In this document: positions 39,779-57,845 of the stretch, piece after piece
Numbering within the stretch: the first letter of the stretch is position 1
Layout of the letters: each line of letters opens with the position of its first letter
Assembly: GCF_003261175.1 (NCBI RefSeq)
Contig: NZ_QLNP01000074.1
Location: 1 to 64,000 of the forward strand
Reading direction: 5' to 3'
DNA length: 64,000 nt
From: Arthrobacter globiformis
Lineage (GTDB): Bacteria; Actinomycetota; Actinomycetes; Actinomycetales; Micrococcaceae
Notes under the pieces: model-generated
Seen by the model: the letters and a program-made list of their open reading frames with translations, nothing else
What the model was told of the DNA's origin: nothing
The model's database searches: none
Made by a program: the position numbers and the translations under genes

Positions 39779-40370
39779 GTGTCTGGGAATGTAATTGGGT
39801 ATGCGAGGGTCAGCACCCGGGGGCAGTCGTTGGATTCCCAGGTGGATGCACTCGTCGCTGCCGGGGCCGTACGCGTGTTTTCAGGAGTATGCTTCCGGCG
39901 CCACCCAGGCGAGGACCCGATGGAAGGAATGCCTGGATTACCTGCAGCCCGGCAATGTGCTGACTGTCGCCGATCTGACCAGACTCGGCCGCAGTACCGC
40001 TGACCTGGCTGACATCGTGACGGTACTGGGTCGCCGGGGGATAGGCTTCCGTTCCCTCGCTGAACCGTGGCTGGATACCACTAGCGCACACGGCAAGCTG
40101 ATCTTCGACATGTTCGCGTCCCTTGCAGAGTACGAACGGTCCAGGCTGTCTGAACGGACAAAGGCTGGCCTGGCGGCGGCGAAAGCACGTGGCCGACTCG
40201 GCGGCCGCCCCCGAACGATGACTCCGTCTAAGATAGAGGCCGCCCTGCAGCTGCGCGTCCAGGGGAAAACTCTGAAGGAGACAGCTCAGATACTTAGCGT
40301 CAGCGTCTCGTCACTGACTCGGGCTCTGAGCCGGAATGACGTGCCAGAAGTCGAAACTGCAGATGCATAG
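39779..40370 (+). pseudogene. Serine recombinase (resolvase/invertase family), one frameshift
   Basis: Start GTG 39779 follows GAGGAGG. The N-terminal catalytic start VIGYARVSTRGQSLDSQVDALVAAG (outline; Ser in RVST) breaks at a TTTT run (39877-39880). Removing one T restores FQEYASGATQARTRWKECLDYLQPG, the TRLGRS motif, the long E helix and the C-terminal HTH (SKIEAALQLRVQGKTLKETAQILSVSVSSLTRAL in outline). About 196 residues if restored. A homopolymer slip may be a real mutation, a sequencing error or, less likely, programmed. Confidence 0.85.
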
Positions 40371-41027: not shown

Positions 41028-41603
41028 TCAGTGCCCGTCAGGCGGTCGTCGCTGGGGTTCCTCTACATGAAGCGGCGCAGCCTTGTCGGCCCAGCGTTCG
41101 TGGGCGGACTGGCGGCTGATGCCTACTGCACGGCCTATATCTGCCCAAGACGCCCCGGTCGCCTTCGCAGCGGCGACGGTCTTGGCCAGTCGGCGGCCTG
41201 CCCGGTTGTAGTCGCGCGCGGCTGCTTCCAGGCCGAGAAGCGCTTCAGAGGGTGCGACGTGGGCGTTCCACTCGTTGTGGATGGCGTCTTCGACTCTTAG
41301 TGAGGCGTGAGCGGAATCGTCCGCGGAGATGTAGTCACGGCGGCGGTTGAAGTCGGCAGCCGTGGGGGAGGCGACCCTTTCCCACCTGTCGCCTTGCCAT
41401 CCGCACGAGCAGTGTCCCCGCCACCCGACGATCTCGCTGTCGGGGACCACCTCGTAGTCGGGCCGCATCCTGTCAGGCTCGTAGCGGCCGGTCAAACCGC
41501 GAAAAAGCATTCCTGCGCCTGATGATGTTATGGACAGCCGCCCGTCAGGGGCAACGCACGCTGCCCAGCCCTCGTGCTCGTTATCTGTTGATACCCAGCC
41601 CAT
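41028..41603 (-). CDS. Hypothetical protein with C-terminal HTH
   Basis: 191 residues from ATG 41603, with GAGGGGGG 10 nt upstream. The N-terminus (GWVSTDNEHEGWAACVAPDG) is followed by a small Cys-containing module (GWRGHCSCGWQGDRW). The C-terminal third is a resolvase-type HTH (KATGASWADIGRAVGISRQSAHERW). It is probably DNA-binding. A truncated copy of its first ~24 codons and upstream region lies at 50716-50821. A palindrome GTCAGG-N4-CCTGAC is conserved upstream of both, which suggests autoregulation. Confidence 0.72.
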   Translation of the reverse strand: MGWVSTDNEHEGWAACVAPDGRLSITSSGAGMLFRGLTGRYEPDRMRPDYEVVPDSEIVGWRGHCSCGWQGDRWERVASPTAADFNRRRDYISADDSAHASLRVEDAIHNEWNAHVAPSEALLGLEAAARDYNRAGRRLAKTVAAAKATGASWADIGRAVGISRQSAHERWADKAAPLHVEEPQRRPPDGH

Positions 41604-41622
41604 GACCTTCGACCCCCCTCGT

Positions 41623-41638
41623 GTCAGGCACTCCTGAC
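41623..41638. promoter_or_regulatory. Palindrome GTCAGG-N4-CCTGAC (operator candidate)
   Basis: Perfect 6-bp arms with a 4-bp spacer, 20 bp upstream of the start at 41603. The same arms with a different spacer stand at the same place before the truncated paralogue (50838-50853), which argues that the arms are conserved for protein binding. Confidence 0.55.
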
Positions 41639-41769
41639 GATCATTGTGGCAGGGGTCAGAGGTAAGGAATAGAGGAGTCCGGCCAACGGAACCGATGTGC
41701 TGGCACGCCCAAGCGAGCCGCTAGCGGTTGGCAAAAAGGATCATGGCCGGCCGAAAAGTGTCGAAGCAT

Positions 41770-43060: not shown

Positions 43061-43412
43061 GGATAGGACCTTTTTCTCAAATTTCTAACAGGGCTTCCGC
43101 CAGCGCTATGACCCGTCAATTACTGGGATTCACGCCTTGATGCCGGGGTCAGCCCGGGATGGCACCAAAGTATGCTAGCAGCGTTACGGGCTATGTCAGG
43201 CATAATCGTTCGCACCCTGCAAGAGAGGTGAACATGGGATACGAGGCGTCTCACGGACTGAGCACCGCGAGGACTCTCATCCAGACTCCTGGGTGGAGGC
43301 GGTCACGAGCGCTTGCGAACTAGCTGCGGCTGCGTCCTGAAAGTCACTTTTGTGACAGGGTTTGTGGCGGAGCCTTTTGGGACAACATCCGGAGCAGTCA
43401 GATTACCCCGTT

Positions 43413-43434
43413 CCCCCGGATCCCGATCCGGGGG
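43413..43434. terminator. Perfect hairpin before site A
   Basis: CCCCCGGAT - CCCG - ATCCGGGGG, a 9-bp perfect stem without a T tract, ends 16 bp before site A. It may be a terminator or part of the recombination-site structure. Confidence 0.5.
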
Positions 43435-43450
43435 AGCGCCCCACCCGAAG

Positions 43451-43480
43451 ACGTTTCAGCTCCAAGGAAGCGGGACACTC
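43451..43480 (+). repeat. Cassette-boundary site A
   Basis: First of six ~30-bp sites. Reads ACGTTTCAGCTCC then AAGGAAGCGGGACACTC. Shares with the others an invariant T at column 4, pyrimidine-purine at columns 7-8, C at 12, AAGGA at 14-18, GG at 22-23 and C at 28. Confidence 0.7.
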
Positions 43481-43561
43481 CTGCAGGGCCACCAGAGTCA
43501 CAACCTCAAGCACCTTGAGCTGGGGAGGCGGTTGCGCTCCCGGTATGTGGGCGAGCCCGAG

Positions 43562-44176
43562 CTAGAGGCGTTCCGGGCTGCTCGTGGAACTACGACGCCA
43601 ATCTTGTCCGTCAATGTGATAGGTCATTCCGGCAGTGAAACGGATCATCGGCTTACCGCTAAGTTCCTCTGCCCGCGCAGGTACATCCTCAATCTCGATC
43701 AGCTGGCGGAAGTCGGATCCCGGCTGAATGTGAAAGTCAGCAGGCAATGAACGCTTGGGTTTTAGCTGCTCATCGAGGGTTATGGCATGCACGGAGGCAC
43801 CGTACTTTGAGCGGTTCTTAATCCAGACATGAATGCTCGTCATCATTTGCCCCGGCCCAGAACCGTGGGCAGCACCACCCTCCAAAGAAATGGACACGCT
43901 TTTGGCCTGATTTATCTCGGCCTGTTCGCGCGCGAGCTGCCCAGCTCTGTCTTTCTCATGTTCGGCCTGACGAGTTCTCTCCCGCTCTGCCTGATCCGAC
44001 CGGAAACTTCGGACGGCCCAGAGAAGTGTGAGGACCGTTGCTACAGCACCAAACCAAGTGCCAGTCGCTTCAATCCAATCGGGCGTCCAGCTGTTCACGA
44101 TCAACAACGCGAGGCACGCGCCGAGAGTGAGCCCGGCGATTCCCCACATGAGATGAACGATCATTCGAGAAGACAT
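43562..44176 (-). CDS. Membrane protein with two helices, coiled coil and beta-rich tail (module A-B)
   Basis: 204 residues. Helices at ~8-28 (LMWGIAGLTLGACLALLIV) and ~40-56 (TWFGAVATVLTLLWAV) are followed by a charged coiled coil (RSFRSDQAERERTRQAEHEKDR...) and a soluble C-terminal domain (SIHVWIKNRSKYGASVHAITL). The layout resembles the protein at 20550 and many small actinobacterial membrane proteins of unknown role. It is the only gene between sites A and B and points against the site orientation. Confidence 0.65.
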   Translation of the reverse strand: MSSRMIVHLMWGIAGLTLGACLALLIVNSWTPDWIEATGTWFGAVATVLTLLWAVRSFRSDQAERERTRQAEHEKDRAGQLAREQAEINQAKSVSISLEGGAAHGSGPGQMMTSIHVWIKNRSKYGASVHAITLDEQLKPKRSLPADFHIQPGSDFRQLIEIEDVPARAEELSGKPMIRFTAGMTYHIDGQDWRRSSTSSPERL

Positions 44177-44265
44177 GGCACCACAGTAGCTACAAGACGC
44201 CTCAACCCAATTTTTGGCAGATTACGCGGGATCCTGTTTCGGATAGGGAGTGTCCCCGTTTCGGG

Positions 44266-44295
44266 GCGTTCTGGTTCCAAGGAAGTGGCACACTC
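44266..44295 (+). repeat. Cassette-boundary site B
   Basis: GCGTTCTGGTTCC then AAGGAAGTGGCACACTC, in the divergent gap between the genes at 43562 and 44381. Preceded by a small CCCCG-TTT-CGGGG hairpin (~44254-44266). Confidence 0.75.
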
Positions 44296-44380
44296 TCTGT
44301 CGGGGGTTTGTGGTGTGCTCCTAGGAGGACTGTCAGCTTGAATAGGCCTTAATTTCTATGGACTTTGGGGGGAGAAAGAG

Positions 44381-45577
44381 ATGCCACTTGCCGCTTACCT
44401 AGCTGGTGAACGCATTGAGGCGCCGTTTGTGAACGACGCAGACTGGGAAGATCTGCGCGGGCGGTGCAAAACAGGGGAGACCCTGACTATGTCTTGCGGC
44501 CAGCCGGGTAAGCCGCGGATCTCCAAAAACGGGTTGAAGCATTTTTACCATCATGGAAAGACTGACTGTTCCTTACATCCCGGTGGGGAATCTGCGGACC
44601 ACCTGGAAATGAAGTCCTTGGTGGCGGCGGCCGCACGCGACGCCGGCTGGGATGCCGTCATCGAACAGGCCGCCCCTGATAGGTCATGGATTGCTGATGT
44701 GATGGCTACCCGGGGGACAGAGAAATGGGCTCTCGAAATTCAATTCTCGCGCCAGGACGCTGCCGAGTTTCGGCGACGGCAGGAACGCTACGAAGCAGAG
44801 GGCATACGGTGCTTTTGGTTAGTTCCGGAAGTGAATCGTGAAGCTGCTGCAGCTGTGCCGTCGGCACTGATTGGTGGAGAGTCGGGAGCAAGGACTCTCA
44901 GCCTGCCTGGCCCGTTCATCGTTCCTGTCACCACCGGTCCTGCTGAAGCTATCAACAGCTTGCTGAACCACGGAATTAAGCAGCGCATTGAACCGGTCGT
45001 TCGGGCGTACTCATTGGAAACGGCGATGATCAAATGCTGGCGAGAGAGCTGTAAGCGGTGGATCACGGCATGGAGGCTCGAAAGCCTTCAGGTGGAAACA
45101 AGGTGTGGATACACGGGCAGTTTGGTCGCAATCCACCACTACGACTCCAGGGACTTCCTCACAGACAGGGTTGAGCGGCTTATTGCAGCCAGGGTCATGC
45201 CCATGCTTAAGCAGGCGGATCTGCCGGCACCCATGTTTTTGGCGACCAGGTTCAGTAAAGCGGCGGACCGCTCTTACCTGGCATTCTGTTGTCCCTTCTG
45301 CAATAGCCTCCAGGGCGATACCCCGCTCAACCATGGCAGCGTCAACTGGCGCAGTTACGTCGTGGAAGGATGGTTGCCATTGCCCATCAGTCAAGGCGTC
45401 CTGTCTCGCGAGCACCTTTGCGTAGACGTCGGGCGAGGGCATTGCAGCCAAGAGCCTCATGCGCCAGAGGGACCAACTTTTCCGGACGGCAAGGCTCACT
45501 GGGTTAGAGCGACACCCGAGCTGTTGGGCAGCGAACTTCCCCCGCTACCACGGCGCGGAGAACGGAAGGGCCAGTAA
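44381..45577 (+). CDS. CoiA-like nuclease-domain protein (module B-C)
   Basis: 398 residues. Residues ~30-65 form a Cys/His-rich start (MSCGQPGKPRISKNGLKHFYHHG), then a CoiA-type PD-(D/E)XK nuclease domain: Glu in ESADHLEMKSLV, Asp in WIADVMA and the ALEIQFS strand with E-x-Q, continuing YEAEGIRCFWLVPE. The C-terminal part has further Cys pairs (KCWRESCKRW, FCCPFCNSL), probably zinc-binding. CoiA aids competence in firmicutes; in actinobacteria solitary CoiA-like genes sit in accessory islands. It is the only gene between sites B and C. A nuclease or defence role is plausible but untested. Confidence 0.75.
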   Translation: MPLAAYLAGERIEAPFVNDADWEDLRGRCKTGETLTMSCGQPGKPRISKNGLKHFYHHGKTDCSLHPGGESADHLEMKSLVAAAARDAGWDAVIEQAAPDRSWIADVMATRGTEKWALEIQFSRQDAAEFRRRQERYEAEGIRCFWLVPEVNREAAAAVPSALIGGESGARTLSLPGPFIVPVTTGPAEAINSLLNHGIKQRIEPVVRAYSLETAMIKCWRESCKRWITAWRLESLQVETRCGYTGSLVAIHHYDSRDFLTDRVERLIAARVMPMLKQADLPAPMFLATRFSKAADRSYLAFCCPFCNSLQGDTPLNHGSVNWRSYVVEGWLPLPISQGVLSREHLCVDVGRGHCSQEPHAPEGPTFPDGKAHWVRATPELLGSELPPLPRRGERKGQ

Positions 45578-45584
45578 GGGGGCA

Positions 45585-45614
45585 ACGTTCCGGTACCAAG
45601 GAATTGGTACGCCT
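45585..45614 (+). repeat. Cassette-boundary site C
   Basis: ACGTTCCGGTACC then AAGGAATTGGTACGCCT. Its arms GTACC/GGTAC pair perfectly around the AAGGAATT centre, although the arm bases differ from those of other sites. Confidence 0.75.
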
Positions 45615-45809
45615 AGCGCATAGGCCACCTGACCTGGCTAATGTCCGCCTTCCAATCAGCCAGGGCTGCCACCCACGCACCGAAACAGCAGCCCACGAAG
45701 AGCGCCGTAACCAGCAACCGTTGTCGTGATCGGCGGCACCTGTGTGCTTCGACGGTGCTGTTCCCGAGGGATTCCGCGGCGCCGGACCGGGTAGGGCAAG
45801 ATACTTCCC

Positions 45810-48800
45810 ATGGGTTCAGCAAGTTTCGAAGACGTCCTCGACCGCCTCTACTTCTCGGCGACCGACCAGCACGACAAGGGGACGAAATTCGAGCACCTTA
45901 TGAAGCGCTACCTGGAGCTTGAACCCAAATACGCTGACCAGTTCTCCGATGTCTGGCTGTGGAGTGAATGGCCGGACCGGAACGGGCACGTTGACACGGG
46001 CATCGACCTGGTCGCCAGGGACCGATACACGGGCGAACTGACAGGCATCCAGTGCAAGTTCTACGACCCGGCCCGGACCCTGGACAAGAAGCAGATCGAC
46101 TCGTTCTTCACCGCCGTCGGCAAGAACGATTTCTCGTACGGCATGGTGGTCTCCACCACCGACAAGTGGTCCAAGCACGCCGAGGACGCCCTGGAGGGCC
46201 AGTCCAAACCGATGACCCGGCTGCGATTCGCGGACCTGGCTGACTCCACCATTGACTGGTCCGAGTTCAGCATCGACGCACCCGAGCAGATGAAGCAGCT
46301 GGGCGGCAAGGAACCCCGCAAGTACCAGCGCGAAGCCATCGAAGACGTGAAGAAGGGCTTCGCCCTCAGCGACCGCGGCAGGCTCATCATGGCCTGCGGC
46401 ACCGGCAAGACCTACACCTCTCTGAAGATGGTCGAAGAGATCGTTCCCATCGGCGGCTCGGTTCTGTTTCTGGTGCCCTCCATCGCCCTGCTGCAGCAGA
46501 CCCTGAATGAATGGACCGCCCAGGCCTCCGTCCCGCTGCGGCCCCTGGCCGTCTGCTCCGACACCAAGGTCGGCCGTAAAGAGCACGAGGACGTCAGCGT
46601 CCACGACCTCGCGTTCCCGGCCACCACCGACCCGGCGAAGCTGCTGAACCGGGCGAAGATCAGCTCCGGCCAGGAAGCCATCACGGTCGTCTTTTCCACC
46701 TACCAGTCGATCGATGTGATCCACCAGGCCCAGAAGGATGGCCTGTCCGAATTCGACCTCATCGTCTGCGACGAGGCGCACCGGACCACCGGCATCACCG
46801 AAGCCAGCCACGACGACTCGGCGTTCGTGAAGGTGCACGACAACACCTACATCGAGTCCGGCAAGCGGCTCTACATGACCGCCACCCCAAGGATCTATGT
46901 CCAGGAGGCCAAGGCCAAGGCCGGCCAGGACGACGTCAAGATGTACTCCATGGACGACGAGGACGTCTACGGCCCGGAATTCCACCACCTCGGCTTCGGC
47001 AAGGCTGTGGAGATGGGCCACCTCGCCGACTACAAGGTCCTGGTCCTCGCGGTAGACGAGGAAACCGTCAGCAAGTCCTTCCAGAGCCTGTTCGAAGACA
47101 ACGGTGACCTAAACCTGGACGACGCCGCCCGGATCGTCGGCTGCTGGAACGGCCTCTCCAAACGCGGGGTAAACGGCCAACGGCTGGACATCACCGATAC
47201 ATCCCCCATGCGCCGGGCTGTCGCCTTCGCGCGGAACATCAAGGAATCCAAGAAGCTGGCCGCCGACTTCGAACTCGTCGGCCGTCAGCTGCTCGTCAAC
47301 CGGGGCGAGTCCGACGCGCTGGCGTTGAAGCTGGAAGCCGACCACGTGGACGGCACCTTCAACGTCCTGGAACGCTCCTCCAAGCTGGACTGGCTCAAAG
47401 CCGAATACACTTCAACCGCCGACGGCGAAGACACCTGCCGGATCCTCTCCAACGCCCGCTGCCTCTCTGAAGGCGTCGACGTTCCGTCCCTGGACGCGGT
47501 GTTGTTTCTGAACCCCCGCAACTCCCAAGTCGACGTCGTCCAGTCCGTCGGACGCGTCATGCGCAAGGCCGAAGGCAAGGAGTACGGCTACATCATCCTG
47601 CCCATCGCCGTCCCGGCCAGTCAGGACCCGGAAACGGCACTGAACGACAACAAGAAGTACAAGGTCGTCTGGGACGTCCTGCAGGCGCTCCGGGCTCACG
47701 ACGACCGGTTCGACGCGATGATCAACAAGCTCGAGTTGAATCGGAACGCCAACAATAAGATCGACGTCATCACCGTGGCCGACCCCTTCGGTGACGGCCC
47801 GGGTGGCGGTGGGAGCGACAAGCCCAGCGGGACTGGCACCGAGGCCTTGTTCCACATGGCCGGCGCCGACCAGTGGCGCAACGCGATCTTCGCCCGCATG
47901 GTCAAGAAAGTCGGCGACCGCCGCTACTGGGAGTCCTGGGCCAAGGACGTCAAGGAGATCGCCGACCGGCACGTGTTGCGGATCCGCACCATCCTTGAGG
48001 GCGAAGACCAGCGGCCGCGGGAGGAATTCAGCGTCTTCCTGCAGGGCCTGCGCGGAAACCTGAACGACTCCATCTCCCAGTCGGATGCGATCGACATGCT
48101 CTCTCAGCACCTGATCACCAAACCGGTGTTCGAGGCGCTCTTTGAGGGCTACTCGTTCGCGGCCAACAACCCGGTCTCCCAGGTCATGGACTCCATGGTC
48201 GACATCCTGGAGAAGTACAACCTGGACTCCGAGGTCGCCAGCTTGGAATCCTTCTACCGTTCCGTCCGGGTTCGGGCTGAAGGCATCACCAACGCCGAAG
48301 GCAAGCAGAAGATCGTCACGGAACTGTACGAGAAGTTCTTCAAACTGGCCTTCCCCCGCACCGCGGAATCCCTCGGCATCGTCTACACACCGGTGGAGGT
48401 CGTCGACTTCATCATCCGCGCCGTCGACGACGTCCTCGCCAAGGATTTTGGGGCATCCATCAGTGACGAAGGCGTCCACGTCCTGGATCCCTTCACCGGG
48501 ACCGGAACCTTCATCGTGCGGCTGCTCCAGTCCGGCCGGATCAAGCCGGAAGACCTGCTGCGCAAGTACACCCAGGAGCTCCACGCCAACGAGCTGCTGC
48601 TGATGGCCTACTACATCGCCGCGATTAACATCGAGGCCACCGTCCACGGACTCCTGGAAGAACAGGCGGCGGCCGACGGCAAGGACCCTGGCGAAGTGCC
48701 GTACCTGCCGTTCGACGGCATCGTCCTGACCGACACCTTCCAGATGACCGAAGACGGCGACACCCTGGACGACTTCGTGTTCACCTCCAACAACGACCGC

Positions 48801-50648
48801 GTGAAGGCGCAGAACGCCCTCGACATCCGCGTCATCATAGGGAACCCGCCCTACTCCGTGGGCCAGTCCAGCGGCAACGATAACAACGCCAACCTGAAGT
48901 ACCCGACCCTGGATGACTCGATCCGCCGGACTTACGCGGACCTCTCCTCGGCCACTAACAAGAACTCCCTCTACGACTCCTACATCCGTGCTTTCCGCTG
49001 GGGCTCCAACCGGATCCTCAATTCCCCCCACGGCGGGGTCCTCTGCTACGTCTCCAACGGCGGGTACATCGACGGCAACACCGCGGATGGCCTGCGGAAA
49101 ACCCTCGTCTCCGAGTTCCACGACATCTACGTCTACAACCTCCGCGGAAACCAGCGGACCGCCGGCGAACAGAGCCGTCGCGAGGGCGGCAAAATCTTCG
49201 ACTCCGGGAGCCGCAACACTGTGGCCATCCTCCTGCTCGTGAAGCGCCCGGGACCCGTCGATGACTGCGCACTTCACTACCGCGACATCGGGGACTACCT
49301 CGACCGGAAGCAGAAACTCTCAATTGTCGACGGCGGCAACATCGCGGACGTTCCTTGGGAACTTGTCGCGGCTAGTGCCGACGGGGACTGGATAAATCAG
49401 CGCAGCAGCATTTTCGAGAGTTACGCGCCCATCGGCAGCAAGGACTCTGGACCAGCCATCTTTGGGGCTTTTTCCAGGGGGCTGGAATCTGGCCGGGATG
49501 CGTGGGTTTACAACTCGTCGCACGAGGAACTTACCCAGAATGTCCGCCGCATGGTGGACTTCTACAACGCAGAAGTTGATCGCTACATCGCCGCCGGCTC
49601 CCCTGGAGAAGTGGACTCATTCATTTCAACTGACCCGGCACAAATTAGCTGGACCCGCAGCCTTCGCAGTGCCCTACGCAAACATGACCGACTCGAATAT
49701 TTAGGCTCAGCTCACCGTACGGCCCTCTACCGGCCGTTCTGCAAGCAAGAGGTCTATTTCGCACCTCTTGCCAATCATGAGCGGTCACAGCAGCCACGCT
49801 TCTTTCCCTCACTCGCTACTTCGAACTTAGGCATTTACTACGTCGGTAGTGGATCTGCAGTGCCTTTCAGTGTTCTCATGACCGACAGCCTTCCCGATCT
49901 TCATGTCACTGGTGCCGGTAGCGGCGGTCAGTTTTTTCCCCGATACAGCTATGCCATCCCGGCTAAGGGGACTCTGTTTGATGCAATAGGCGATGATGAC
50001 CAGGGACCGCAGCGTATCGACAACATCACTGATGCTGCACTCACCAGCTACCGGTCTGTCTACGGGCCGGCCGTCAGCAAGGACGACATTTTCCATTACG
50101 TCTACGGCCTGCTTCACTCCCCCGAGTACAGGACCAGGTTCGCCGCGGACCTGAAGAAACTGCTGCCCCGCATCCCCCAGGTGCCCGATACTGAGCGCTT
50201 CCGTGCCTTCGTGGACGCTGGCAAGGCACTCTCGGATCTGCACATCGGATACGAGTCATTGGAGCCGTACGCGCTTACAGAGGTGGCCACCGGCCTTGCC
50301 GTGGAGCAGGACGACTACGCCCGTTTTGCCGTGACAAAGATGAAGTACGCGGGCAAAGCCGGGACCTGGGACAAGACGCGCATCGTATACAACGCGCACA
50401 TCACCTTGGAAGGCATCCCGGAGGAGGCCCAGCAGTACATGCTCGGCTCCCGCTCAGCCGTGGACTGGATCCTGGAGCGTTACCAGGTCAAGACGGACAA
50501 GGCCTCGGGCATCGTGAACGACCCGAATGATTGGTCCCGTGAACACAAGCAGCCCCGCTACATCATCGAACTGATCGGCCGCATCGTGGCTCTCAGCCTG
50601 GAGACCAACCGGATCGTCGAATCACTGCCTGAGCTCGGGCTGGATTAG
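45810..50648 (+). CDS. Type ISP restriction-modification enzyme (single polypeptide; module C-D)
   Basis: 1,612 residues, the full size of Type ISP enzymes such as LlaGI. Domains in order: Mrr-like PD-(D/E)XK nuclease (Asp66 in GIDLVARD; Gln81-x-Lys83 in GIQCKFY); superfamily-2 helicase-type translocase (~170-640) with Walker A CGTGKT (~195-200) and DEAH box VCDEAHR (~319-325); a helical coupler; a gamma-class N6-adenine methyltransferase with motif I DPFTGTGTF (~893) and motif IV NPPY (~1012); and a C-terminal target-recognition domain (~1150-1612). It methylates one strand of its site and cleaves unmodified phage DNA after translocation. No partner genes are needed. It is the only gene between sites C and D. 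All key motifs are intact. Confidence 0.93.
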   Translation: MGSASFEDVLDRLYFSATDQHDKGTKFEHLMKRYLELEPKYADQFSDVWLWSEWPDRNGHVDTGIDLVARDRYTGELTGIQCKFYDPARTLDKKQIDSFFTAVGKNDFSYGMVVSTTDKWSKHAEDALEGQSKPMTRLRFADLADSTIDWSEFSIDAPEQMKQLGGKEPRKYQREAIEDVKKGFALSDRGRLIMACGTGKTYTSLKMVEEIVPIGGSVLFLVPSIALLQQTLNEWTAQASVPLRPLAVCSDTKVGRKEHEDVSVHDLAFPATTDPAKLLNRAKISSGQEAITVVFSTYQSIDVIHQAQKDGLSEFDLIVCDEAHRTTGITEASHDDSAFVKVHDNTYIESGKRLYMTATPRIYVQEAKAKAGQDDVKMYSMDDEDVYGPEFHHLGFGKAVEMGHLADYKVLVLAVDEETVSKSFQSLFEDNGDLNLDDAARIVGCWNGLSKRGVNGQRLDITDTSPMRRAVAFARNIKESKKLAADFELVGRQLLVNRGESDALALKLEADHVDGTFNVLERSSKLDWLKAEYTSTADGEDTCRILSNARCLSEGVDVPSLDAVLFLNPRNSQVDVVQSVGRVMRKAEGKEYGYIILPIAVPASQDPETALNDNKKYKVVWDVLQALRAHDDRFDAMINKLELNRNANNKIDVITVADPFGDGPGGGGSDKPSGTGTEALFHMAGADQWRNAIFARMVKKVGDRRYWESWAKDVKEIADRHVLRIRTILEGEDQRPREEFSVFLQGLRGNLNDSISQSDAIDMLSQHLITKPVFEALFEGYSFAANNPVSQVMDSMVDILEKYNLDSEVASLESFYRSVRVRAEGITNAEGKQKIVTELYEKFFKLAFPRTAESLGIVYTPVEVVDFIIRAVDDVLAKDFGASISDEGVHVLDPFTGTGTFIVRLLQSGRIKPEDLLRKYTQELHANELLLMAYYIAAINIEATVHGLLEEQAAADGKDPGEVPYLPFDGIVLTDTFQMTEDGDTLDDFVFTSNNDRVKAQNALDIRVIIGNPPYSVGQSSGNDNNANLKYPTLDDSIRRTYADLSSATNKNSLYDSYIRAFRWGSNRILNSPHGGVLCYVSNGGYIDGNTADGLRKTLVSEFHDIYVYNLRGNQRTAGEQSRREGGKIFDSGSRNTVAILLLVKRPGPVDDCALHYRDIGDYLDRKQKLSIVDGGNIADVPWELVAASADGDWINQRSSIFESYAPIGSKDSGPAIFGAFSRGLESGRDAWVYNSSHEELTQNVRRMVDFYNAEVDRYIAAGSPGEVDSFISTDPAQISWTRSLRSALRKHDRLEYLGSAHRTALYRPFCKQEVYFAPLANHERSQQPRFFPSLATSNLGIYYVGSGSAVPFSVLMTDSLPDLHVTGAGSGGQFFPRYSYAIPAKGTLFDAIGDDDQGPQRIDNITDAALTSYRSVYGPAVSKDDIFHYVYGLLHSPEYRTRFAADLKKLLPRIPQVPDTERFRAFVDAGKALSDLHIGYESLEPYALTEVATGLAVEQDDYARFAVTKMKYAGKAGTWDKTRIVYNAHITLEGIPEEAQQYMLGSRSAVDWILERYQVKTDKASGIVNDPNDWSREHKQPRYIIELIGRIVALSLETNRIVESLPELGLD

Positions 50649-50685
50649 GCCTTCTCAAACGCGGCGCAGGCGAAGACGGCCGTTA

Positions 50686-50715
50686 GTGTCCTGAGTCCAA
50701 GGAAGTGGGACACGC
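50686..50715 (+). repeat. Cassette-boundary site D
   Basis: GTGTCCTGAGTCC then AAGGAAGTGGGACACGC, 38 bp after the Type ISP stop. The truncated paralogue at 50716-50821 begins right at its edge. Confidence 0.78.
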
Positions 50716-50821
50716 GAAAAGCGAGAAGCTCTTGGTCTGTTGAGGATGCGGACAGCCGCCCGTCCGGTGCGACGCACGCTGCCCAGCCCTCGTGCTCGTT
50801 GTCGGTTGATTTCCAGCCCAT
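50716..50821 (-). pseudogene. Truncated copy of the 41028-41603 gene
   Basis: From ATG 50821 leftward the frame reads MGWKSTDNEHEGWAACVAP then DGRLS, nearly identical to the start of the 191-residue gene at 41603. The homology then stops and the frame runs into site D. At nucleotide level about 70 bp are ~90% alike, and the upstream palindrome is conserved. The gene was cut at, or close to, the site D junction. Confidence 0.82.
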
Positions 50822-50837
50822 GATCCACAACCTTCCT

Positions 50838-50853
50838 GTCAGGTATCCCTGAC
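50838..50853. promoter_or_regulatory. Palindrome GTCAGG-N4-CCTGAC (second copy)
   Basis: Same arms and place as the palindrome at 41623, upstream of the truncated paralogue; only the spacer differs. Confidence 0.5.
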
Positions 50854-50928
50854 GGGAAGTGCGTCAGTGACCCCTGACAATCATCAGGGGTGCTGCTTCG
50901 GCAGGCCCCCGCCGCGCAGCTCAAAGGT

Positions 50929-50960
50929 GAGGGGAGGGGGTGCCTTGACCCCCTCCCCTC
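50929..50960 (-). terminator. Strong GC hairpin after the 23-codon frame
   Basis: GAGGGGAGGGGGT pairs perfectly with ACCCCCTCCCCTC around TGCCTTG-type loop bases. Read leftward it begins 2 nt after the stop of the frame at 50963. There is no long T tract, so termination strength is uncertain. Confidence 0.6.
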
Positions 50961-50962
50961 AG

Positions 50963-51034
50963 TTACAAGGGCTCGATAGTAATTTCGAGACCAGCTACTG
51001 TAAGACGCACAGTTATTCGGAAGCCGTGACTCAC
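50963..51034 (-). CDS. Candidate 23-residue microprotein
   Basis: GTG 51034 is preceded by AAAGGAGGT with 6-7 nt spacing, one of the best ribosome sites in the window. The peptide (MSHGFRITVRLTVAGLEITI plus EPL) alternates polar and hydrophobic residues like a beta hairpin. It is framed by a hairpin upstream (51057-51094) and a perfect 13-bp hairpin immediately downstream. It might be a leader peptide, a toxin-like microprotein or chance; no family is known to me. Confidence 0.4.
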   Translation of the reverse strand: MSHGFRITVRLTVAGLEITIEPL

Positions 51035-51331
51035 TCGGTTACCTCCTTTCTCTAAGAGATGGTCCCCTCGCCGGCCAGGGCGGGGGGACCATCTGCTTCC
51101 CCTCCATCATTGGGTCTAGGTGAGCCTCCGACAAGCCACAGACCCCCGCCTTTCGAGCGGTACAGGATGGCGCTTGCAGCGCCGTGAGAGGTCGTTCGCG
51201 GCGGGTTAGTTGAGCATTTGCAGCATGGACCATCTACGCTTGTTGCGGAATCTAGTTAAGAAAGAAGAAGTACAAGGACACCAAGGACTCCGCGAATCAC
51301 GTGGACTGCAGGTCGTTCCGCCAAGAGTGCA

Positions 51332-52078
51332 ATGTTTGTTGAGAGGATCGCTTTGGACGAGCCGGTTGACGCCTTAGTGAGGCTGAAGAACGCTGTAGAT
51401 CGAGCCAAGCGAAGCTCCTCAGTTCAATTCCCCATCGTCTTCGTACGCAGGGAAGAGGAGGAGCCGCTGCTTTCACAGTTGATGCGCGGCGGCCGCGGAG
51501 GCGAGGTCAGACTGCGGCTCTACCTCACACTGAGGATGCAGGCGACAAGACATCCTTACGTGCTTCGGCAGAAGACGGCTAGAGGGCTCGCAGCCATGCT
51601 TAACCTGCCGGCTGACACCGGTCCCCGGCAAATAAACGCTGCTCTGAAATGGCTGGAATCAAAGCGCTTGATTCGGCGCGAGTTTGAGCCAGGGAAGATT
51701 CCTCACATCACTCTGCTGAGGCCTGACGGTACGGGGGAAGAATGGGGTGCGAGATTCGAGCGGCGCTATGTAACGCTTCCGATCGAACTGTGGGCGAACG
51801 GATGGATCCTCAAGCTGAATGGCCGTTCCTTAGCCGTATACCTTGCACTCCGCGAGCTCACGGGCGGAACGGGCCAGAATGGAGAAGTCATGGCAGGGCA
51901 CCGAAAGACCCAATATGGCATGTCCAATGACACATGGACGCGGGCCACGAAGGAGCTCGAAGACCTCGGACTCCTCACAATGTCGTCCGAAGTGTATGGA
52001 GACGACGACCTAAGAATGCGCGTTCGTAAGCGCTATCGCCTCAAAGCCTTGGCGGACATCGGCTCCCCGTCCTGGTGA
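51332..52078 (+). CDS. Helix-turn-helix domain protein (module D-E)
   Basis: 248 residues. The middle holds two helix-rich winged-helix-like segments: RQINAALKWLESKRLIRREFE (~105-125) and KTQYGMSNDTWTRATKELEDLGLLTMSS in outline (~190-220), with LNGRSLAVYLALRELTGG between. This two-wing layout resembles plasmid replication initiators and phage replication/regulatory proteins of actinobacteria, but no catalytic motif is present. The ATG 51332 lacks a strong ribosome site. It is the main gene between sites D and E and is convergent with the gene at 52261. Confidence 0.62.
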   Translation: MFVERIALDEPVDALVRLKNAVDRAKRSSSVQFPIVFVRREEEEPLLSQLMRGGRGGEVRLRLYLTLRMQATRHPYVLRQKTARGLAAMLNLPADTGPRQINAALKWLESKRLIRREFEPGKIPHITLLRPDGTGEEWGARFERRYVTLPIELWANGWILKLNGRSLAVYLALRELTGGTGQNGEVMAGHRKTQYGMSNDTWTRATKELEDLGLLTMSSEVYGDDDLRMRVRKRYRLKALADIGSPSW

Positions 52079-52249
52079 AACGGCGCCAACCGCTGGCCTT
52101 GCTGCTCACCCGAGCTGAGTCATCCCTAGGGTATTTCGTTCATCGCAGGGCGTGCTGAAGCCAGAGAGTATCAGGGGTGCTATCCGCATGCAGTGAATCG
52201 AACCGCTCGAGGCCGGGTTTCGCCCTGGACCTTTGTGTCCACGGACCGA

Positions 52250-52279
52250 CCATCCCAGTTCTAAGGAAATGGGACACCG
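52250..52279 (+). repeat. Cassette-boundary site E
   Basis: CCATCCCAGTTCT then AAGGAAATGGGACACCG. It overlaps the last codons (GVPFP-stop) of the leftward gene ending at 52261, so that gene's C-terminus is encoded by the site. Confidence 0.72.
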
Positions 52280-54162
52280 GACCGTTCGTGGGGGCAGTCT
52301 GGTCCTCCAGTAAGACCAAGATCCCCTCGTGACGGCTCATCGACGCGCTGTGATCCGTCCTTAGACGTTTTGCCAGCACTATGTAGGTCCCAAATGGGCC
52401 AGTCCTGAAACTGGACCAGTTGAGCTTCATCTAGACGACTCAGGCAGTAGGCAATTTCTTCCTCGTCGCCAAGCAAAATTGCGCAGGCAGTCTCTGCAAA
52501 GAGTGGATTGTCAATCTCATGCCTGCTTGCTTGGCCCTTCAATGAGCGGATTTCGAGCCGCTGATCCTGTCTAAGTTGACCTTTCCTAACAGCAATCTGC
52601 CAATGGTTAATTTGGTGATTCGGAAGGTCGCCTTGCTTCGATACCAACCAGTTGTTAAGGCTGAAGGCAGCATCCAAGAACTCCGACTTTCGGACTTCAA
52701 CAACATCGGCGGCACGAATTAAATTGAGCACGGTTGCATTAGCATAGTCCGCAGCGCCAGGGTATTCAAATATATCGTTGTATGCGTTGACTAAGTTATC
52801 GAGGTGCAAATTGAGCGTGAACGGTAGGTGTTCGCGATCCACAATCTCATATGGCGTCACTCTGGTAATTTGAAGCTCGCCTGCTTCGTCTTCCCAACTC
52901 ATGACGAATTGCTGCCCTAGTTCTGGATGGAAAAGATCACGACACAGCCACTTGCCCTTGGCGCTATCTTGTGCAACAAGCAGTTGAAGGCTCCAGCGGC
53001 CCATGGGCTGCAAGATTCTGCCAGGTTCATGATGCGCGACACTAATCTCTTCTCCCCCAAGCATGACTCCATGTAGCCCGACAAGCTGCCGACCTCTCTT
53101 GCCTTCTAAGGGCTCCAGCTCGACAAGACTTGAATTGACTCCCAAGTGGTCGCACAAGGACATCAGAGTCGTCAGGTATTCGAAGTGTTCACGCAGGTCT
53201 TGTTGGTCGTCGCATGAGGCGACCTGAACCCTATTTTCAATCCCGTCGATACTGAAAACTTGATCGTCTACGCATGTGAGGTAGAAGCCAAGGTCATTGA
53301 AGCGTTCCCTCAGAGTCTCACGCATCGTCAGTGATACAGAGCCTGTGGCAGCCTGGTCTGTTCCCGTTCTCCGCAGCTTCAGGCCGTCACTGAGTTCAAG
53401 CTCAACAGTGTCCCGGTCTACTCGTCGTCTTGTTGGGTTGCGAAACTCAAAGTCCCCGCTGGCAACAGATAGCTCCGTCGGCTCACCAACATACTCCGGA
53501 GGCGTGATGACGAGTTCCTCATCAACGGACAGGGCCATTCCTCCGGAGGTTTCGAATACGAGGGTGAAATCGAAGTCATCGCGCGTCAGTCTTACCGGGG
53601 CATCCAGATTCAGGCTCCCATCGGTATAGAGGGTGATGCGGCTCAAATCCTTGAGTTGCTTTAGATCGATGCGCGCGGCAGGGTTTTCAGCAGCCGATTG
53701 TAGCGCCAGTTTGATTATGTCTTCGATTTTTGCTGGATCAGAGGGGAACCGCTTTATGTTTACTCCAATCCGGCTTTTACGACCCATTTTCCTAATAAGA
53801 AACTGAATTTTAAATGGATTCAGCAACACATATGATGGAATTGCCTTGCCGGTCCTAGGGTTAACGAACACAATAAAATAGAGCACGCTATGATTCTTCA
53901 GGTAGCCGGTGAGATCGGTCTTAGTGATCGCAAATGTACGCGGGGGCTTCGTGCTGACCGTCGCTGTCCGTCCTTTGACTTGGACATTTACACGTCCCTC
54001 AAAGGTCTCCTTACTGTGCGATTCTGAAGAATGAACATCGATATGTCCGTCAGTTAATAGAGTCTTATCATTTGAATCAATGAATGCTTTCAAATGTGGG
54101 CATTTAGAGACCCTGTGACCTATCTCGTAAACGGCTAGCATTTCAACGTCCATAGGTGCCAT
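52261..54162 (-). CDS. Large protein with DUF4365-like nuclease-type N-terminus (module E-F)
   Basis: 633 residues. Residues ~1-150 resemble DUF4365: GHRVSKCPHLKAFI, DGHIDVHSSES, then VNVQVKGRTATV with the Q-x-K of a PD-(D/E)XK-like core, and LKNHSVLYFIVFVNPRTGKA. This domain probably binds or cuts nucleic acid. Residues ~170-460 are beta-rich (FTLVFETSGGMALSVDEEL), and ~470-600 are helical (NLHLDNLVNAYNDIFEY, TACAILLGDEEEIAYCLSRL). Such single large DUF4365 proteins occur in defence islands, but I cannot name a system. The last residues are encoded by site E. Codon use looks somewhat AT-richer than that of the neighbours at 52.4-54.1 kb, a sign of transfer. Confidence 0.7.
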   Translation of the reverse strand: MAPMDVEMLAVYEIGHRVSKCPHLKAFIDSNDKTLLTDGHIDVHSSESHSKETFEGRVNVQVKGRTATVSTKPPRTFAITKTDLTGYLKNHSVLYFIVFVNPRTGKAIPSYVLLNPFKIQFLIRKMGRKSRIGVNIKRFPSDPAKIEDIIKLALQSAAENPAARIDLKQLKDLSRITLYTDGSLNLDAPVRLTRDDFDFTLVFETSGGMALSVDEELVITPPEYVGEPTELSVASGDFEFRNPTRRRVDRDTVELELSDGLKLRRTGTDQAATGSVSLTMRETLRERFNDLGFYLTCVDDQVFSIDGIENRVQVASCDDQQDLREHFEYLTTLMSLCDHLGVNSSLVELEPLEGKRGRQLVGLHGVMLGGEEISVAHHEPGRILQPMGRWSLQLLVAQDSAKGKWLCRDLFHPELGQQFVMSWEDEAGELQITRVTPYEIVDREHLPFTLNLHLDNLVNAYNDIFEYPGAADYANATVLNLIRAADVVEVRKSEFLDAAFSLNNWLVSKQGDLPNHQINHWQIAVRKGQLRQDQRLEIRSLKGQASRHEIDNPLFAETACAILLGDEEEIAYCLSRLDEAQLVQFQDWPIWDLHSAGKTSKDGSQRVDEPSRGDLGLTGGPDCPHERSGVPFP

Positions 54163-54509
54163 TGTTGCCTATGGCTGTCTGGGCCGAGTAACCCGCCGCG
54201 GCTAGACCCCAATCGACCTACAAGCTCGCTCAACACCGTCCCCTCGCGGAACCGTAGTTGTTAACGACCGTCGTTGGCCGCCATGACAGATCCACCGGCC
54301 TTGATTGGATGGGAAGTGGCCCAGCAAGGGTGTTCCAGGCCCAAGGATGTGGGCGCTCGTTAGGACGTTGTAGGAATCCGACAACTTAGGAAGGGAGCGG
54401 CAGAGAAGAGCGCCCGTAGCTGCCCGCGGACGGGCCTTATCTACACGGCCCCTAATGCCCCCCTCGCGCCCGAACAGTAAGCTGAACACAAGCTGAAGGG
54501 GGACAAGAA
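54163..54509. other. Intergenic region holding site F
   Basis: 347 bp between the start of the DUF4365-like gene and the HicB-like gene. It includes site F (54330-54359) and otherwise no supported gene. Confidence 0.45.
54330..54359 (+). repeat. Cassette-boundary site F (most diverged copy)
   Basis: GTGTTCCAGGCCC then AAGGATGTGGGCGCTCG. It keeps the invariant columns, and GCCC/GGGC arms pair, with compensating changes relative to sites B, C and D. Confidence 0.6.
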
Positions 54510-55617: not shown

Positions 55618-55872
55618 TGTCATACTCCTTCTACTACCAACCACTGGACAGGCTGACGATAGGTCCGATCCTCACCGCCGTGGGGGACGGGGGCCGTGGC
55701 GACTATGGTGGTTTGACTCAGGACCGGTGTGATGGGTTTGAACCAGCACCGCCCGTGGCTCGCCGGGCACTTGGGACGGGTATTCGTGGCCCCACCTTCA
55801 ACATTGAGATTCAGACGGTCTCGCCCGCTCGTGGTGTTTAGAACCTGCCCAGCTTCCACACGCAGGACGTAT

Positions 55873-56133: not shown

Positions 56134-56637
56134 AGTGTGCCCCTTGCGTCTAAGAAGAATGTCCCGCCTGGGATTGGGGGAACCAGGCGGGACACTGCCC
56201 CCCAACGTACCAGCCCATTCGCGCAGTTCCGGGTCAGGAGCATGCTCGCGGGGCTCGCACTGGTTTCCGCTGCGCTTCAACCTCGGGCGTCCACTCCGCT
56301 TCGCTCCGTGGCCGGCTGTTGGGTGCTGCCGGTCCGGCGCAGAGCTCCTGCCCGTCATCACCTGGTTGTCTACGACGTTTCTTGGCTGCTGTCCTTATGT
56401 TGTTACCGGGCTCAGTTCCGCGGTCATTGTAGGGTCGTGGCTACCCAGGGGAGGCGGGTATGGCTTGGCTGCTGTGGTCCGCACGCTTGCACGTGACGGC
56501 TCCGTAGGATTGGCCGCCCGCCACCCCGCGATGACCCGACCGCTGATTGAGAGACGCGACATGATCGCCGGATAAGGACACGACGGCGCGGTTATCTGCT
56601 GGGCTCTTCCCATCCAACAGACTGGAGGCTGTTCTTG
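56134..56637. other. Intergenic and 5' non-coding part of the third IS110
   Basis: 504 bp. After the hairpin, the last ~230 bp (about 56400-56637) are probably the 5' non-coding end of the IS110 element, the usual place of its bridge RNA. I could not fix the element's left end. Confidence 0.4.
56161..56193. terminator. Perfect 11-bp hairpin
   Basis: GTCCCGCCTGG and CCAGGCGGGAC pair around an 11-nt loop. No T tract; it may be a terminator or an operator upstream of the small gene starting at 56133. Confidence 0.55.
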
Positions 56638-57845
56638 GTGCAATTATGGGCCGGCATCGATGCCGGCAAAGCCCATCATCACTGCGTTGTAATCGATGGC
56701 GAGGGGAACCGGCTGCTCTCACAGAAGGTTCCCAACGACGAAGCGGCGCTCATCCAACTTTTGGCCACCGTCCTGGAGCTGTCGGATGGGGGCCCTTTGG
56801 TGTGGGCGATGGACTTGAATCATGGCGGGCCGGCGCTGCTGATCGCGTTGCTTGTCGGTCATGGGCAGAACCTTCTCTATATTCCTGGGCGGACGGTGCA
56901 CCACGCCTCAAAGATTTATCGGGGTGACGGCAAGACAGATGCGAAGGACGCCGCGGTTATCGCCGACCAAGCGCGGATGCGGACGGACCTGCAGCCTTTG
57001 CGCGCCGGTGATGAGATCAGCGTCGGGTTGCGACTTCTGACCGCTAGGCGGGCTGATAAGTCGGCGGATCGGGTGAGGGCGATCAATCGCCTGAAGGCTC
57101 AGCTTCTGGAGTATTTCCCCGGGCTGGAGCGGGCCTTCGATTACAGCAGGTCCAAAGCTGCACTGTTGTTGCTGACCAAGTATCGGACTCCGGATGGGAT
57201 CCGTCGTGCAGGCCAGGCGAGAATTCAGGCCTGGTTGAAGAAGCACGGTGCTCGTTCCTCCGCAGCGGTTGCTGCCGCTGCGGTGGAAGCCGCGAAGGCC
57301 CAGCAGACCGTAGTTCCTGCCCAGCGCATGGGGGAGATGATTGTCGCCGCCCTCGCCAGGGAGGTGGCGGTTTTGAACGAGGAACTGGAAGAACTGGATG
57401 CGCTGATCAGTGAGAAGGTCACCGAACACCGGCACACCGAGGTGCTGTTGAGCATGCCCGGCTTCGGGCCTGTCCTCGCTGCCGAATTCCTGGGTGCCAC
57501 CGGCGGGGACATGGCTGTCTTCCAATCTGCGGACCGGTTCGCCGGTGTTGTTGGGTTGGCGCCGGCACCGCGGGACTCCGGACGGATCAGCGGCAACCAC
57601 CACCGGCCAAGACGATACGACCGGCGGCTGCTCCGCGTCTTCTTCCTCTCCGGGCTCTCGGCGCTTAAATCCTGTCCATCCTCACGTGGCTACTACGACC
57701 GAAAACGGATAGAAGGAAAATCGCACATCCAGGCAATGCTCTCGCTTGCCCGGCGACGGCTCAACGTATTGTGGGCCATGCTGCGCGACGGGGCCCTCTA
57801 TACGCCGATGCCGGTGGCCACACCACTGGCTGCCTGATTCAGGGC
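56400..57845 (+). mobile_element. Third IS110-family element, intact transposase
   Basis: Contains the full transposase at 56638-57837 and a non-coding 5' end. The boundaries are approximate: there are no inverted repeats, and the right limit is set by the recombinase gene ending at 57853. Confidence 0.65.
56638..57837 (+). CDS. IS110-family transposase, intact
   Basis: 399 residues from GTG 56638 (TTG 56635 possible). DEDD domain: Asp in LWAGIDAGKAHHH, Asp/His context VWAMDLNHGGPAL in place of the usual Glu, and KTDAKDAAVIADQAR. The C-terminal domain has LLSMPGFGPVLAAEFLG and the Ser in APRDSGRISGNHHRP. The AMD instead of VEA at the second acidic position is a branch feature of actinobacterial IS110 relatives, so activity is possible. 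It is not a close copy of the two IS110 elements at 14.8-18 kb. Confidence 0.88.
   Translation: MQLWAGIDAGKAHHHCVVIDGEGNRLLSQKVPNDEAALIQLLATVLELSDGGPLVWAMDLNHGGPALLIALLVGHGQNLLYIPGRTVHHASKIYRGDGKTDAKDAAVIADQARMRTDLQPLRAGDEISVGLRLLTARRADKSADRVRAINRLKAQLLEYFPGLERAFDYSRSKAALLLLTKYRTPDGIRRAGQARIQAWLKKHGARSSAAVAAAAVEAAKAQQTVVPAQRMGEMIVAALAREVAVLNEELEELDALISEKVTEHRHTEVLLSMPGFGPVLAAEFLGATGGDMAVFQSADRFAGVVGLAPAPRDSGRISGNHHRPRRYDRRLLRVFFLSGLSALKSCPSSRGYYDRKRIEGKSHIQAMLSLARRRLNVLWAMLRDGALYTPMPVATPLAA

Follow-up and report, generated by a model that had tools for sequence, protein, structure and literature searches.

The stretch analysed here (the window) comprises 64,000 nucleotides of Arthrobacter globiformis contig NZ_QLNP01000074.1 (GCF_003261175.1; its genome is G000 in the comparisons) and carries a row of short, directly repeated sites that separate unrelated genes. 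We read this region as an integron-like gene-cassette array, probably built by a small plasmid-borne serine resolvase and not by a tyrosine integrase, and put the probability of this reading at roughly three in four. The comparative evidence for it consists of a family of 26-bp sites, the link between these sites and one type of recombinase, a conserved accessory arm, the layout of the arrays and the sharing of cassettes with breakpoints at the site core. A preliminary description of the window had suggested a cassette array moved by an unknown recombinase. The comparisons support the array, as same-direction recombinase sites bound mostly small modules that strains share with breakpoints at the sites, and they supply a candidate enzyme, a small serine resolvase whose putative res site I has this sequence.

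The site family, its candidate recombinase and the accessory arm

The site is a 26-bp near-palindrome with the consensus GTYCCRSTTCC-AA-GGAANTGGRACAC, in which two 11-base arms flank a central dinucleotide; the recombinase half-sites suspected in the preliminary description correspond to the two halves around this AA centre. A site matrix was built from genus-wide copies (163 training sequences, the five window sites included) and used to scan 100 loci (1.85 Mb), mostly picked because they were site-bearing; this set was compiled without L057–L090 and L103 (a duplicate of L102), and open reading frames (ORFs) and intervals were counted without L171 onward. The scan returned 173 sites of at least 18 bits, five of which are the window sites, and the reversed sequence of the same loci gave none at this score and three at 12–18 bits. 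The central dinucleotide is AA in 159 of the 173 sites and supplies most of their directionality; a two-base centre is typical of serine recombinase crossover. The sites are real and form a genus-wide family.

Five strong sites (31–40 bits) were located in the window, all on the forward strand: site 1, the head site, at 43453–43478 (31.3 bits, AA core 43464–43465), site 2 at 44268–44293 (35.7 bits, core 44279–44280), site 3 at 45587–45612 (30.9 bits, core 45598–45599), site 4 at 50688–50713 (32.6 bits, core 50699–50700) and site 5 at 52252–52277 (40.4 bits, core 52263–52264), the last overlapping the stop end of the reverse-strand ORF 52261–54162. Six same-direction sites had originally been described; the sixth (54332–54357, forward strand, sequence GTTCCAGGCCCAAGGATGTGGGCGCT) is degenerate, scores 9.9 bits, under the threshold used elsewhere, and looks like a decayed copy that is one base short. 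The consensus of that first description matched the window six times at up to three mismatches, against 1.74 expected; five of these matches are array sites and one, at 4606, is not. One of 100 shuffles reached six matches (the largest gave eight), so the signal within the window is modest and proof of the site family rests on the other genomes.

A 26-base pattern with up to two mismatches was present in 64 of 199 genus genomes, and the pattern read backwards had no match in any genus genome listed. Order-wide, 13 of 396 genomes matched a stricter pattern; nine of them lie outside the genus, six scoring at least 39 bits and three just 19–23 bits. Viral contigs gave no exact site and no close recombinase, only two remote ones (39–41% identity), and a phage origin was rejected.

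In the first 21 regions examined, the most widespread protein group was of the resolvase family (eight ORFs in six regions); four of the eight ORFs adjoin a site (L041, L046, L047, L055), three are other resolvases of the window and one is a fragment. A further protein group spanned five of the 21 regions. The reference recombinase, P0001 (196 amino acids, from G092), is a small plasmid serine recombinase of about 200 residues, with nearly full-length homology to known structures: residues 2–190 align to a DNA invertase (4m6f, 7e-27), residues 3–187 to Tn3 resolvase (1e-23) and residues 1–184 to Sin (2r0q, there named Tn552 invertase bin3; 4e-19), and gamma-delta resolvase is also homologous. 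At an E-value of 1e-40, P0001-type genes were found in 29 of 207 genus genomes.

The site lies 113–131 bp upstream of the P0001-type gene in 20 of 30 loci (one pair being a duplicated stretch of one contig), or 20 of 26 when intact N-termini are considered. The 40 regions that we picked upstream of serine recombinases of other kinds contain no copy, even at 12 bits. Two 20-kb stretches of G205:C4 (L102, L103) that are 99.97% identical each carry a head and a recombinase, which reflects a duplication or an assembly effect. Ten P0001-type loci have no site, and in four of these (L058, L061, L070, L073) a recognisable arm is retained and another repeat replaces site I. Repeats of the form GTGCAGNCGACTTYNGA replace site I beside a recognisable arm at these four loci and at L192, and probably represent the terminus of a transposon with res loci as its target.

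The association extends to plasmids and beyond the genus. P0001-type genes (E 1e-40) occur in 49 plasmid records from ten genera, chiefly Rhodococcus, Paenarthrobacter and Arthrobacter, and are located near ParA on conjugative or mobilizable plasmids. The site was present at 116 or 130 bp in nine of 12 fetched plasmid regions, from Arthrobacter, Paenarthrobacter, Rhodococcus, Prescottella and Corynebacterium; the misses are two Rhodococcus and one Arthrobacter region. Class-wide, four of 296 genomes carry the recombinase at E 1e-55, in other families and at 55–56% identity, and all four of these genes outside the genus family have the site 147–160 bp upstream, two in each direction.

A conserved stretch of about 125 bp, here called the arm, separates the site from the gene and in relatives ends at the recombinase start codon; because of this arrangement the site looks like the crossover site I of a res locus. 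A palindromic site with a two-base centre does lie beside the gene in the 20 of 30 loci given above, and cleavage there is a prediction. On these grounds a small serine resolvase with this sequence as its res site I can be proposed as the cassette recombinase.

Clustering of the upstream flanks of the 173 sites yielded 27 head arms, the window's included, from which an arm hidden Markov model (HMM) was made. The window arm (43331–43452, forward strand) aligns with the 26 others and scores 70 bits against the model. Across the 27 heads, half-site matches (model from site I) are enriched around −69/−72 and −81/−84 from the site (about 70 and 82), 12 bases apart and in direct orientation. The corresponding site II-like pair of two 12-bp direct half-site repeats is predicted at 43375–43398 of the window (forward strand, coordinates counted by eye), where it is weak, and these positions are absent from the best four matches of the window's own arm. 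The arrangement, here predicted from sequence, resembles Sin site II as described in the relevant part of PMC2428073.

The first site of an array thereby differs from the others, a point on which the preliminary description needs correction. In the window the site at 43453 retains the arm without a recombinase, and the later sites are mostly bare, with a marginal partial arm upstream of site 2 (9.7 bits, E 0.008). Full arms (at least 30 bits) accompany 16 of 44 first sites and one of 78 later sites; with the threshold lowered to 8 bits, the counts become 20 of 44 and eight of 78. An earlier count (12 first, one not first, 14 single) is superseded by these figures from the more sensitive HMM. 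The armless first sites of L041 and L046 adjoin another recombinase subgroup with a different arm, and in the chromosomal arrays L037, L051, L054, L145 and L155, which include two of the 16, about 170 bp separate the first site from the arm upstream, so that the two do not adjoin. The motif GGGAGTGTCCC (up to two mismatches, within 50 bp upstream, mostly about 20 bp before the site) was also noted at 38 of 135 non-head sites of at least 25 bits and at 15 of 26 heads, with three of 161 in downstream controls; it is possibly an inverted extra half-site. A broken site was noted in L038 (about 5880–5920), where a half-site with its upstream motif is followed by unrelated DNA.

Array layout, cassette sharing and cargo

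Neighbouring sites point the same way. Among adjacent sites less than 9 kb apart with AA/TT centres, same and opposite orientations number 53 and 0 at 30 bits or more, 62 and 1 at 25 bits or more and 68 and 4 at 18 bits or more; with all centres counted there are 72 same, five opposite and six with a palindromic centre. Sites avoid genes: 31 of 173 lie within an ORF longer than 120 amino acids, against 72% of random positions. The 77 inter-site intervals hold 0 to 12 predicted ORFs, exactly one in 36, and reach 8.5 kb under the 9-kb limit; 100 ORFs run along the site direction and 92 against it.

Exchange at the sites was assessed by all-against-all alignment of the 100 loci, in which 63 alignment ends coincide with a site in both loci, among the 1721 ends that do not lie at locus edges. 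Together with 17 bases to each side, the sites make up 0.33% of this sequence, and many of the 63 ends are those of the res-recombinase unit itself. The informative cases are cassettes. One is the CoiA cassette, which the window shares with G205:C3 at 96.6% identity over 1338 bp that begin within site 2 and end within site 3. Inside the 5' site the right half agrees at 13 of 13 positions and the flank at 28 of 30, and outside it the left half agrees at eight of 11 and the flank at 13 of 30. At the 3' site the two copies agree up to the core, save for single bases and a one-base gap, and differ beyond; the gap belongs to the G205 copy of a site, which scores 17.8 bits, just below threshold.

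A 0.67-kb GNAT cassette is common to G080, G112, G163 and G167 (92–99% identity). Between G080 and G112, identity at the 5' site rises from 8/30 in the flank and 10/11 in the half outside to 13/13 and 30/30 inside, and at the 3' site it falls from 30/30 in the flank and 11/11 in the half inside to 9/13 and 8/30 outside; the G163 pair is less clean (inner halves 11/13 and 9/11). Two further cases are one-ended: G142 and G082 at the 5' end (outside 12/30 and 5/11, inside 13/13 and 30/30), and G171 and G177 at the 3' end (inside 29/30 and 10/11, outside 10/13 and 11/30). Each of these two cassettes, CoiA and GNAT, is found in more than one species and setting, and their ends suggest a crossover in the AA core. 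Breakpoints at the core, as predicted for swapped modules, were seen for the CoiA cassette and for the GNAT cassette in G080 and G112; some other pairs are less clean, and one (L038 and L136, below) has no switch.

A chromosomal hot spot common to several species also holds site arrays (L037, L051, L054, L145, L155, L136). Its left flank is conserved in many genomes, and homology mostly ends about 340–370 bp before the site; G048, G067 and G155 alone match G080 up to the site. The insertion is not simply site-bounded, and the hot spot was therefore not used as proof of an empty site. Between G080 and G115, segments are reordered and sites were not detected at all junctions.

The five cassettes of the window, all in forward array orientation, each hold one main gene on either strand, as had been described. 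Cassette 1 (43465–44279) contains the reverse-strand ORF 43562–44176 of 204 amino acids. Cassette 2 (44280–45598) contains ORF 44381–45577 (forward), a CoiA-like nuclease, of which G205:C3 has a 97% copy bounded at both sites. Cassette 3 (45599–50699) encodes a Type ISP restriction-modification enzyme (45810–50648, forward), cassette 4 (50700–52263) a protein of 248 amino acids (51332–52078, forward), with a relic at about 50731–50880, and cassette 5 (52264–54343) one of 633 amino acids (52261–54162, reverse). Family searches confirmed the labels CoiA-like nuclease and Type ISP enzyme; the membrane coiled-coil, helix-turn-helix and DUF4365-like labels given to the products of cassettes 1, 4 and 5 were not confirmed, as none of these three proteins matched Pfam, NCBIfam or PADLOC at the chosen cut-offs. 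The relic of cassette 4 (about 150 bp) is found in many genus genomes, with an 81% copy at 41519–41639 of the window, at the start of ORF 41028–41603.

Cargo was compared between 72 cassette ORFs (taken as the largest reading frames of cassettes no longer than 5.2 kb, with manual addition of the last ORF of the window and without three further GNAT cassette copies and ORFs under the set sizes) and 72 flank ORFs; the flank ORFs were filtered to a third-position GC content (GC3) above 0.7 and the cassette ORFs were unfiltered. Cassette ORFs matched 74 Pfam families and flank ORFs 90. The cassette families are diverse, the 25 of 74 listed including GNAT, NmrA-like, CoiA nuclease, Mrr, dihydrofolate reductase, SpoIIE, nitronate monooxygenase and barstar. 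At 1e-8, PADLOC gave 35 models for cassette ORFs and 29 for flank ORFs, counting models and not proteins. A defence payload, suggested at first sight, holds in the window for the restriction enzyme and perhaps the nuclease; defence is not clearly the general cargo of the arrays, and a defence island as their general identity was rejected on the PADLOC comparison.

The window also encodes a TraG/TraD-type protein, a CHAP protein and ParA, and the CHAP and ParA genes occur on plasmids pAD52 and pSI-1 as well; the window is therefore probably plasmid or integrated-plasmid DNA. Searched against the plasmid collection, the window cassettes matched seven records, every match falling inside the Type ISP cassette, and the GNAT cassette matched five, all diverged GNAT genes. 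Additional small serine recombinases, or pieces of them, belong to other subfamilies and lie at 39795–40370, 57853–58449, 58735–59307 and 62259–62658, and an IS110-family transposase at 56635–57837. About 60 bp at 55754–55813 are repeated in dozens of genus genomes at 83–94% identity and resemble repetitive extragenic palindromic (REP) elements or miniature inverted-repeat transposable elements (MITEs). ARAGORN called a transfer RNA gene, tRNA-Arg (ccg), at 28082–28164, inside ORF 27957–29342 and on the same strand; the call is possibly false.

Proposed mechanism and competing explanations

In the mechanism that we propose, the recombinase gene lies beside a res locus that consists of the accessory arm of about 125 bp and, next to it, crossover site I of 26 bp. 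A cassette circle carrying a single site I would be joined to the head site by exchange at the central AA, and the asymmetric two-base core would set the direction, which is why the sites would be co-directional. The arm would remain on the recombinase side at the first site and the incoming cassette would take the first place, so that repeated insertions would yield head, cassette, site, cassette, site; a cassette would be freed again whenever two direct sites recombined with each other. Insertion at an arm-bearing head would thereby account for the polarity, the common direction, the bare inner sites and the exchange of half-sites. In the window, the head (43331–43478) and five cassettes remain and the recombinase gene is gone, which would leave an enzyme acting in trans as the only means of working on this array.

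Somewhat less firmly, with the odds moderately in its favour, we regard such arrays as 'serine integrons', an active actinobacterial platform on which a plasmid resolvase would integrate and excise single-gene cassettes at its own res site I. On this account the arm-bearing head would take the role of attI and the bare 26-bp sites that of attC. Cassettes would pass back and forth between hot spots in the chromosome and plasmids, in a system convergent with, and unrelated to, tyrosine integrons. The role of this recombinase as catalyst, the cassette circles and the competence of the bare sites are what we infer from the comparisons.

Several observations weigh against this interpretation, whose support is entirely comparative. 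Genome G000 itself carries no P0001-type recombinase at E 1e-40, and no recombinase relic was found left of the window head beside the arm. By the HMM, 24 of 44 first sites have no arm and eight later sites have at least a partial one. Four of 72 neighbouring pairs at 18 bits or more are oppositely oriented, and the counts of orientation and sharing carry no correction for common descent. In three of three Corynebacterium plasmids the AA is reversed relative to the gene, and the spacing from arm to gene is variable. Among 199 genomes, 14 of the 28 with a recombinase and 50 of the 171 without one have the site, a tally that is our cross-count of two listings and uses a pattern that misses sites detected by the matrix. 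For the GNAT cassette, the inner halves of G080 and G167 agree at 13/13 and, at the 3' site, just 8/11, and similarity between G167 and G112 runs about 110 bp past the 5' site. L038 and L136, expected to switch at the site, show no base-level switch of identity there. Relatives of the Type ISP enzyme of cassette 3 occur in seven other fetched loci, six of them without a site; in the seventh (L100, 3752–8661, 74% protein identity) 46 bp separate an array site from the 3' end of the gene beyond it, and the gene is reversed relative to the window. Finally, in the passages on Sin considered here, site II and a DNA-bending protein are required to activate site I, and recombination of site I with site I is mentioned only for an activated Sin mutant (PMC2428073). 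This is the weak point of the mechanism: at bare sites the reaction would have to be relaxed or asymmetric, with a relaxed enzyme or another cofactor.

The main rival is that the arrays are a by-product of plasmid maintenance: an ordinary resolvase that resolves multimers would occasionally fuse plasmids or delete DNA between res sites, leaving eroded remnants without dedicated cassette traffic. The position of the recombinase near ParA on conjugative or mobilizable plasmids, the TraG/TraD-type, CHAP and ParA proteins of the window, the partial arms of some later sites and the intervals of up to 8.5 kb would all suit this explanation. Fusion through whole res loci should, however, leave full arms at inner sites, and these were seen at one of 78 later sites; 36 of 77 intervals hold a single predicted ORF, and one small cassette is present in four genomes, cut at or near the core. 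We consider this origin unlikely, and markedly more so the possibility that a different resolvase or invertase moves the cassettes in trans and the P0001-type enzyme merely shares the site. Genomes do contain several coexisting serine recombinases, the three others of the window being identical to P0001 at 61, 81 and 74 of 196 residues, and G000 has no P0001 type, but the site stands upstream of 20 of 30 P0001-type genes and of none of the 40 other serine recombinases.

Two further explanations were rejected. The palindrome might be the operator of a widespread regulator marking promoters of accessory genes, as its symmetry, its mostly intergenic position and its place upstream of the recombinase gene would allow; this is very improbable given the genes on both strands between sites (100 same, 92 opposite), the non-palindromic AA core that keeps one direction and the homology between strains that stops inside the site. 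Scarcely credible, in our judgement, are remnants of transposon or insertion sequence (IS) ends: at some res loci a transposon-like repeat does stand in place of site I and an IS110 transposase group occurs in three of 21 regions, kilobases from the sites, but transposon ends are usually inverted pairs and these sites are direct, and the most widespread protein group of the 21 regions (eight ORFs, six regions) is of the resolvase family and not a transposase. No mobile element with an inverted 26-bp site at both ends was seen among these sequences. A tyrosine integrase as driver was likewise rejected, as none recurs beside the sites in a PF00589 search of 15 genomes, where contigs with sites have their nearest matches 2.2 kb (G049:C4) and about 5 kb (G080:C2) beyond a site. 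Outside the window, its contig has three tyrosine recombinase matches close together (G000:C42:83000–87586), like a recombinase trio.

Relation to known recombination systems

Staphylococcal cassette chromosome (SCC) elements form composite islands with same-direction sites and use a serine recombinase, as proposed here. The comparison with SCC, raised in the preliminary description, fails at the enzyme: Ccr proteins (CcrA/B/C) are large serine recombinases, and P0001, with 196 amino acids, scores 21–23 bits against NCBIfam cut-offs of 700–900.

A head with an accessory arm is, to our knowledge, not a feature of dif/pdif modules. These modules, as described in part of a study of Acinetobacter plasmids, share with our arrays the use of a resolution site as module border on plasmids, a dimer-resolution site bordering exchangeable gene modules, and differ in their XerC/XerD tyrosine recombinases, 6-bp spacer and C and D module types with opposite site orientation (PMC13141974). 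The present sites have a two-base centre, AA in 159 of 173, and direct orientation (53 to 0).

The enzyme is homologous to those of Sin/res and Tn3-type systems, with which it shares a palindromic site I upstream of the gene, and the putative accessory half-sites look directly repeated, as in Sin site II (PMC2428073, in the part cited above). Where staphylococcal sin/res is treated in PMC3276174, it is reported as a plasmid maintenance system and a hot spot for transposon insertion, and not, in that portion, as a carrier of cassette arrays. Passages of an Arthrobacter plasmid paper mention Tn3-type and IS-borne resolvases and Xer modules (PMC6305408). Among the best-ranked matches listed from open-access full texts (subscription papers and preprints being outside this scope), no resolvase cassette array was found.

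Integrons and XerCD modules, both with tyrosine recombinases, are the best-known cases of cassettes being captured through site-specific recombination. If our interpretation is correct, the same architecture arose more than once from different chemistry, and this would explain how accessory genes are shuffled, on plasmids as well as chromosomes, in a common soil genus and in related genera. It would also offer short directional sites and a 200-residue enzyme; a reaction between a full res locus and a bare site I is not expected of wild-type Sin-type resolvases.

The closest likeness is to integrons, which also have a recombinase beside a special first site with the array on the other side of it, direct sites, and numerous single-gene modules of varied cargo; the recombinase-less arrays resemble clusters of attC sites lacking integron-integrases (CALINs). 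The differences lie in the enzyme, a small serine recombinase whose gene lies beside the head sites in place of the IntI tyrosine integrase, and in the cargo, here on both strands. The attC is a folded site, and the sites described here are short and probably double-stranded with a two-base core; IntI beside attI is absent and the consensus lacks the GTTRRRY core of attC, a misfit already noted in the preliminary description. No cassette system known to us matches the present one in enzyme class and site type, and its logic is that of integrons.

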